Notes under the pieces: generated by a model
Told to the model about the DNA's origin: nothing
Databases searched by the model: none
What the model saw: only the letters and a program-made list of their open reading frames with translations
NCBI RefSeq assembly: GCF_039555335.1
Contig: NC_092637.1
Span: 1 to 64,000 of the forward strand
DNA: 64,000 nt
Direction of reading: 5' to 3'
From: Amphiura filiformis
Lineage: Eukaryota > Echinodermata > Ophiuroidea > Amphilepidida > Amphiuridae
Part shown: piece after piece, positions 35,249 through 62,384 of the stretch
How the letters are laid out: each line of letters opens with the position of its first letter
How positions within the stretch are numbered: the stretch's first letter is position 1
Made by a program: the position numbers and the translations under genes

Positions 35249-35256
35249 TCACGGAC
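35249..35256 (-). CDS. Candidate terminal exon (Cys-Pro-stop)
   Basis: On the minus strand, TCTTCTTTTTTGCTCTGCAG is a strong acceptor. The exon then starts GTCCGTGA. With T from A9 this reads TGT CCG TGA, completing the sixth Cys and stopping. The GTCC start fits a linker position. It would make a secreted protein, unless other exons exist. Confidence 0.35.

Positions 35257-62384: not shown

Follow-up and report, generated by a model that had tools for sequence, protein, structure and literature searches.

The question raised by this window (the whole stretch of 64,000 nucleotides of Amphiura filiformis DNA that was analysed) is whether it carries a gene assembled from one recurring group of LDLa-coding exons and, if so, what the recurring unit is and what kind of protein it builds. 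A preliminary description had placed on the minus strand, at 35249–62384, a gene in which a divergent LDLa exon (B), a canonical LDLa exon (A) and a mucin-like linker exon (L) follow one another nine times. Open-frame scans and splice borders bore out these coordinates, and the scans recovered the strict alternation of nine B and nine A exons from 62384 down to 36109 (Table 1). The linker part of the three-exon rule is looser than had been described: separate Thr-rich linker exons (L1 and L3–L7) come after only six of the nine modules, behind A1 and A3–A7. L2 has no exon of its own and forms the front portion of the exon that also encodes B3, L8 lacks Thr and encodes Pro-Val-Ala after completing a Cys, and what had counted as the ninth "linker" proves to be the terminal exon (Cys-Pro-stop, 35256–35249), which accounts for the lower coordinate of the described gene.

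Eight of the nine A exons measure 111 bp (A2 has 117 bp) and six of the nine B exons 114 bp (B3 is fused, B7 has 120 bp and B8 111 bp), and the length of every exon except the terminal one is a multiple of three. As described earlier, a final T is followed by an initial GT at all 18 ends of B and A exons, where the Cys6 codon is split, and the last base of the linker exons is G in L1 and L3–L7 and A in L8. Donor sites read gtaag at all A exons and gtgag at all B exons. The claimed length of 829 residues had to be corrected, the splicing used here giving, for the part present, 830 complete codons preceded by a split one. B1 is an internal exon, so the gene is incomplete within the window and only its 3' part is present; because B1 begins with GT, an A exon may precede it, as is the case in the paralogue P0121. 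No start exon was seen by eye in 62384–64000, a tblastn search of the window with nine Amphiura relatives (E ≤ 0.01) gave no match beyond the exons described, and an Rfam search of the window returned nothing at gathering score.

Table 1. Exons of the LDLa gene in the window, in order of transcription
Exon	Position	Strand	Basis or remark
B1 LDLa, divergent type, 114 bp, internal	62271..62384	-	open frame, splice borders
A1 LDLa, 111 bp	60814..60924	-	Pfam Ldl_recept_a, 41.4 bits
L1 Thr-rich linker, 78 bp	59767..59844	-	splice borders; start Met of P0001 inside L1
B2 LDLa	58980..59093	-	splice borders, P0001 alignment
A2 LDLa, 117 bp, loop longer by two residues	56439..56555	-	splice borders, P0001
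L2+B3 fused, 141 bp	55973..56113	-	identical protein sequence in P0001
A3 LDLa	55215..55325	-	splice borders, P0001 alignment
L3 linker, 87 bp	54461..54547	-	splice borders, P0001 alignment
B4 LDLa	54215..54328	-	splice borders, P0001 alignment
A4 LDLa	53890..54000	-	splice borders, P0001 alignment
L4 linker, 48 bp	53278..53325	-	splice borders, P0001 alignment
B5 LDLa	52815..52928	-	splice borders, P0001 alignment
A5 LDLa	52312..52422	-	splice borders, P0001 alignment
L5 linker, 57 bp	50836..50892	-	splice borders, P0001 alignment
B6 LDLa	49078..49191	-	splice borders, P0001 alignment
A6 LDLa	48120..48230	-	splice borders, P0001 alignment
L6 linker, 45 bp	47699..47743	-	splice borders, P0001 alignment
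B7 LDLa, 120 bp	47131..47250	-	splice borders, P0001 alignment
A7 LDLa	46106..46216	-	splice borders, P0001 alignment
L7 linker, 99 bp	45536..45634	-	splice borders, P0001 alignment
B8 LDLa, 111 bp	44094..44204	-	splice borders, P0001 alignment
A8 LDLa	40234..40344	-	splice borders, P0001 alignment
L8, 12 bp: completes Cys, then Pro-Val-Ala	39216..39227	-	P0002 there: Pro-Thr-Ala-Asn
B9 LDLa	38048..38161	-	collinear with P0002; absent from P0001
A9 LDLa	36109..36219	-	collinear with P0002; absent from P0001
Terminal exon: completes Cys6 of A9, Pro, stop	35249..35256	-	Cys-Pro end in P0002, P0003 and P0122; absent from P0001

Outside the gene, the minus strand at 14356-17282 holds open reading frames resembling those of a non-LTR retrotransposon, with a reverse transcriptase match (PF00078, 4.8e-36) and an upstream frame with a PHD-type zinc finger. 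On the plus strand, a frame at 12334-13062 has a weak match to the zinc-binding domain in reverse transcriptase (PF13966, 19.8 bits, below the cut-off), and a 270-aa open frame (stop to stop) at 4273-5085 has no Pfam match; we take the start of the latter to resemble the N terminus of a vesicular-transporter-like gene. Dense, degenerate tandem arrays with many units of 20, 30, 40 and 70 bp and a consensus like AATCACGACAAAGGACAGTA occupy 28761-32235.

Exons L1 to A8 are independently supported at the protein level by P0001, an uncharacterised A. filiformis protein at NCBI, which aligned over 658 residues, of which 657 consecutive ones are identical and the last one differs. The identity runs from inside L1 to the Pro-Val-Ala of L8 and includes the fused L2+B3 exon. 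P0001 is probably cut off at both ends, starting at a Met within L1 and reading through L8. Divergence at codon positions 1, 2 and 3 was 0.267, 0.211 and 0.443 among eight A exons and 0.315, 0.312 and 0.476 among six B exons, and median dN lay below median dS both for these A exons (0.28 vs 1.31; 25 of 28 pairs usable) and for these B exons (0.40 vs 0.91; 12 of 15 pairs usable). This codon-position bias, together with dN lower than dS, indicates that the exons are coding and under purifying selection. Chance as the source of the exons is ruled out by the matching NCBI model and the codon-position bias.

Pfam recognised LDLa (Ldl_recept_a, PF00057) in 17 stretches of the window protein (320.5 bits). 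Among the 3 A and 4 B domains that were tested singly, out of nine of each in the window, all three A domains passed the cut-off of 24.1 (38.5–41.4 bits), as did two B domains (31.0 and 28.3), and the other two B domains fell below it (21.7 and 19.5). Run against the PDB, a profile built from the nine B domains of the window found 46 distinct sequences at E ≤ 0.01, from LDLa-bearing chains named as LDLR/VLDLR/LRP, relaxin receptor, CD320, LDLRAD3 or Tva chains; B therefore counts as LDLa by sequence. AlphaFold models were poor both for a B domain alone (pLDDT 61.5) and for P0001 (pLDDT 36.1). When the weak B model was put to a fold search, nothing matched at E ≤ 0.001, and LDLa-bearing chains headed the list.

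In every one of the nine window B domains, Cys4 is followed and Cys5 preceded by Asp, Asp-Glu stands in front of Cys6, and the stretch from Cys5 to the Asp-Glu comprises five residues, as against four in the window A domains (six in A2). In a wider set, Asp follows Cys4 in 57 of 58 B domains and in 31 of 73 A domains (Asn in 42 of 73) and precedes Cys5 in 58 of 58 and 51 of 73, respectively. The Cys spacing is 6-5-6-5-9 in 53/58 B and 7-4-6-5-8 in 58/73 A domains of this set; for the B domains, the search pattern already prescribes the third and fourth spacings, the loop length of five and the Asp-Glu. A pattern that prescribes none of these (Ser after Cys2) matched 54 domains in eight paralogues; Asp-Glu was present in all 54, the loop had five residues in 48 and four in 6, and Asp was found behind Cys4 in 48 domains and ahead of Cys5 in 49. 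The Asp, Asp and Asp-Glu positions are calcium ligands in LDLR structures. The acidic residues of the calcium cage are thus present in B, for which calcium binding is predicted, and the calcium affinity of A domains may vary, given the Asn after Cys4 in many of them. In human LDLR, Asp47Asn, which is equivalent to this Asn, retains LDL binding and uptake according to the available part of PMC6226515.

We placed B and A among other LDLa domains with a tree of 147 domains and 38 columns, 42 of the domains being other LDLa from six proteins; its bootstrap had not settled and many of its forks are unresolved. All 48 B domains lie on one side of a branch with support 100/99, and 53 of 57 A domains form a clade at 99/95, the other four being the N-terminal pairs of P0003. 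By these comparisons B is one LDLa clade with a calcium loop one residue longer. Among the matches listed, the exact B spacing occurs in 51 of 194 LDLa-like pattern matches in 15 Amphiura proteins and in 1 of 2159 such matches in 305 non-Amphiura proteins (drawn from the best 120 of 1450, the best 120 of 464 and the best 120 of 956, many of them via EGF similarity), in a database that may hold no brittle-star proteomes besides Amphiura. The third of these searches, made with P0122, returned mostly fibrillin-type EGF proteins among its best 120 of 956, and the only B–A proteins there were P0121, P0122 and P0003.

B is directly followed by A in 9 of 9 cases in the window and in all 48 cases of a non-terminal B in eight paralogues; one further B is the last domain of P0004. 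What comes after A in these paralogues is a linker and B (36 cases), a linker and A (3), another A (11), B without a linker (7) or the end of the protein (7), as counted without P0001 and with Cys-spacing patterns, which miss irregular domains; at least one linker-and-A case, in P0003, conceals a B with an extra Cys. Seven of the 11 A–A joints lie within the B–A arrays of P0002, P0004, P0121 and P0122, and the remaining four belong to canonical-type pairs in P0003, P0051 and P0123. Strict alternation of A and B in homologues, on which the preliminary description had made its claim depend, accordingly fails in the paralogues, where BAA, BAAA and A–A joints are found. The distinct B/A architecture with Thr-rich linkers that it had proposed survives as the B–A pair, but the linker is optional, since linker-less B-A-B-A occurs. 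On the sequences compared, then, what stays constant is the B–A pair; its linker is optional and its A may be duplicated. This pairing has so far been seen only in Amphiura filiformis among the matches listed. It is common to regard LDLa domains as interchangeable beads; two subtypes with differing Cys spacings, kept in a fixed order over dozens of copies, suggest that the functional unit is the pair and not the single domain.

The regular exon order had also been read as a sign of growth by whole three-exon modules. The collinear order and the unsplit B–A pair agree with such growth, but the exon comparisons lend it no support. Within the window the similarity matrices of A and B exons are uncorrelated (Mantel r = -0.255, p = 0.87), and the corresponding distance correlations are 0.070 (p = 0.35) in P0121 and 0.109 (p = 0.28) in P0122. 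Exons that lie close together in the gene are no more alike than distant ones (B, r = -0.075, p = 0.65; A, r = 0.184, p = 0.16), exon-to-exon DNA matches (E ≤ 1e-6) extend at most 29 bp past the exon border, and no resolved fork in the tree of 147 domains joins two window domains. Recent duplication of whole modules is thus not supported by the Mantel comparison, the exon-border matches or the tree. The lone A duplications (BAA, BAAA) and the linker-less B-A-B-A of paralogues also speak against growth by whole modules.

The order of modules is collinear with that of P0002 and P0121 (p = 0.0002 each, 0 of 5000 permutations reaching the score) and weakly so with that of P0122 (p = 0.066 for B and A together, 0.036 for A alone); collinearity is absent with P0003 (p = 0.44; B alone 0.023), P0004 (0.77) and P0005 (0.46). 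The matching stretch contains eight modules in P0121 versus nine in the window, the differing one being ambiguous (6, 7 or 8), and this one gain or loss of a whole module is seen along with changes in lone A domains. The array probably arose before the latest gene copies.

Three non-palindromic segments (187–386 bp, 77–88% identical) are shared between introns of the gene, in every case between equivalent introns and on the same strand: 38433–38815 and 45126–45502 (introns L8–B9 and L7–B8, 88% identical), 43862–44048 and 48823–49001 (B8–A8 and B6–A6, 85%), and 40396–40660 and 56862–57183 (B8–A8 and B2–A2, 77–87%). Two of the three have further partial copies outside the gene. The exons adjoining them have 61–70% DNA identity (B6/B8, A6/A8, B2/B8, A2/A8 and B8/B9). 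Because the segments are more alike than these exons, they are younger than the split of the exons, and any module duplication would have to predate them. Inserted repeats or gene conversion would fit these sequences better than module copying, but the equivalence of the introns, left unexplained by this, is if anything a point for growth by whole modules.

The introns also contain long imperfect palindromes resembling foldback repeats (79-86% identity) at 37375-37996, 46424-46927, 48370-48740 and 45817-46074. The first has relatives at 5642-6162 and 62595-62703 and the third one at 59387-59717, and introns B6–A6 and L1–B2 have a palindromic repeat in common. A 366-bp tandem repeat of about two copies (41675-42356) lies in the B8–A8 intron, which is the longest of the gene.

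The Amphiura paralogues P0121 (1858 aa), P0122 (1597 aa) and P0003 (1084 aa) share a plan in which an FN3 domain stands ahead of the B–A array. A signal-like N terminus is present in P0003 and P0122, EGF repeats in P0121 and P0122, and two SUEL lectin domains in P0122, and P0123 combines B–A pairs with VWA, MAM and EGF Pfam matches. To judge from these relatives, the missing N-terminal part of the window gene likely encodes a signal peptide, EGF repeats and FN3 (SUEL lectin in one paralogue). No transmembrane-like stretch was found in the part present, in which the stop directly follows the last LDLa; beyond the first 40 positions, hydropathy over 19 residues peaks at 0.95 for the window protein, and none of five relatives exceeds 1.31, the value of P0123. 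The computed pI of the window protein is 4.05. Its linkers comprise 5–34 residues with 40–80% S/T/P and are plausible targets of O-glycosylation. The window protein has neither a vWFD/C8 Pfam match nor long tandem PTS repeats, and so does not qualify as a gel-forming mucin.

We favour, with moderate confidence, the reading that the window holds the 3' part of an A. filiformis gene for a large, secreted, acidic, calcium-stiffened and O-glycosylated B–A LDLa protein of the matrix, surface coat or mucus, and not for an endocytic receptor. Each LDLa would fold around three disulphides and one calcium ion. Only one residue separates Cys6 of B from Cys1 of A, and B and A, directly abutted, would form a semi-rigid acidic pair; O-glycosylated linkers would keep such pairs apart, and the outcome would be an extended, polyvalent and very acidic extracellular glycoprotein of the matrix, surface coat or mucus. 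The secretion, calcium binding, glycosylation and tissue role of the gene product are what we infer here. The main rival, which we consider unlikely, is a secreted immune recognition or agglutinating molecule (an opsonin) built from paired LDLa, SUEL lectin and EGF domains with a variable number of modules; the SUEL lectin domains of P0122, the occurrence of several family members on a contig of matching length (68,856,880 bases) and the varying module numbers are in its favour, but the modules, with dN below dS, bear no sign of diversifying selection.

A separate alternative concerns the 3' end. The NCBI model would have the gene end at L8, leaving B9, A9 and the terminal exon to another copy or as relics, and P0001 indeed runs on past the end of the 12-bp exon until it meets a stop. 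We regard this ending as improbable. The alignment of P0002, a close paralogue, extends from the end of L3 to the last residue of the window protein, and beyond its counterpart of L8 P0002 continues with equivalents of B9, A9 and the final Cys-Pro; in P0121, too, a short linker at the equivalent place leads on to B-A. L8 is flanked on either side by good splice sites and is the sole candidate of its type in the introns of the gene, compared with a mean of 0.002 candidates in dinucleotide shuffles of its interval (n = 500), a control whose splice criteria were fixed after L8 had been seen. B9 and A9, moreover, have kept open frames and the donor sites of the family. C-terminal Cys-Pro is found in P0002, P0003 and P0122, and P0121 ends in Cys-Pro-Asp-Thr-Met. 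The C termini of P0002 and P0121 are B-A-A-A and that of the window gene is B-A; the protein sequence of its A9 recurs unchanged as the last A in P0002 and as the third-last A in P0121.

An endocytic receptor of the LDL-receptor/LRP type, with the array as its ligand-binding arm, is very improbable, even though members of the LDLR family bind lipoproteins through tandem LDLa repeats and many non-Amphiura neighbours are of LRP2/SORL1 type (best 120 of 1450), since no Ldl_recept_b (YWTD) match was found in the window protein, P0121, P0122 or P0003, the part present has no transmembrane-like stretch, and the frame, like those of P0002, P0003 and P0122, ends in Cys-Pro-stop right behind the last LDLa.

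Beyond the secreted B–A protein itself, a wider reading can be offered tentatively, and we would not yet bet on it. The B–A pair with its Thr-rich linker might be a lineage-specific super-module, consisting of a longer-loop B and an obligate A, that was spread by phase-1 exon shuffling into several secreted scaffolds of brittle stars (EGF–FN3, SUEL lectin and VWA/MAM) and thereby gave rise to a novel class of acidic glycoproteins of matrix or mucus. The arrangements B–A, B–A–A and B–A–B–A, with or without a linker and in several hosts, provide a natural series for how exon shuffling builds extracellular proteins, and they draw notice to an uncharacterised family of brittle-star proteins.

LDLa domains, their phase-1 layout of one exon per domain and tandem growth are known. 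As far as our searches show, what is new is the B subtype, its obligate pairing with A and the position, within the Cys6 codon, of the introns after B and A exons. No title or abstract opening in the literature search describes a B–A LDLa family. In the available part of its main text, the A. filiformis genome paper (PMC11310086) has no word starting with "LDL" or "mucin", and the gene table of a brittle-star Notch study, in the part available, lists one LRP2-like transcript (PMC7217437).

Known systems resemble the window gene in some respects and differ in others. The limpet protein P-vulgata_3 occurs in adhesive mucus and has five LDLa repeats, but according to the available part of PMC7333891 it is a vWFD/C8/TIL protein with the predicted location "cell membrane". 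An LRP2-like protein of Oscarella lobularis (P0006) has a similar string of LDLa domains with Thr/Pro-rich spacers, but it contains no B-pattern domain and, by inspection, has a transmembrane-like segment and a tail. Closer at hand, the A. filiformis LDLa–FN3 proteins P0026 and P0052 combine LDLa pairs with FN3 as the B–A family does and lie on a contig of matching length, although their canonical pairs alternate with FN3 and no B-pattern domain was found in them. With the LDLa arrays of LDLR, VLDLR and LRP2 the window gene has in common the six-Cys LDLa with its acidic calcium-site motif. It encodes one LDLa per phase-1 exon, and in the part present its protein differs from the LDLR/LRP family in that no YWTD domain or transmembrane segment and tail were found. 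The available part of PMC6226515 places LDLR c.185C>T at Thr62, beside Cys(VI) of LR1. Because Thr62 adjoins it, Cys(VI) would be residue 63 and c.190 the first base of codon 64; by this deduction, which also leans on the splice name c.190+4, the exon-2 border of human LDLR lies one codon later than the introns of the window gene, which cut the Cys6 codon. The window gene further differs from LDLR arrays in the Thr-rich linker that follows most of its pairs.
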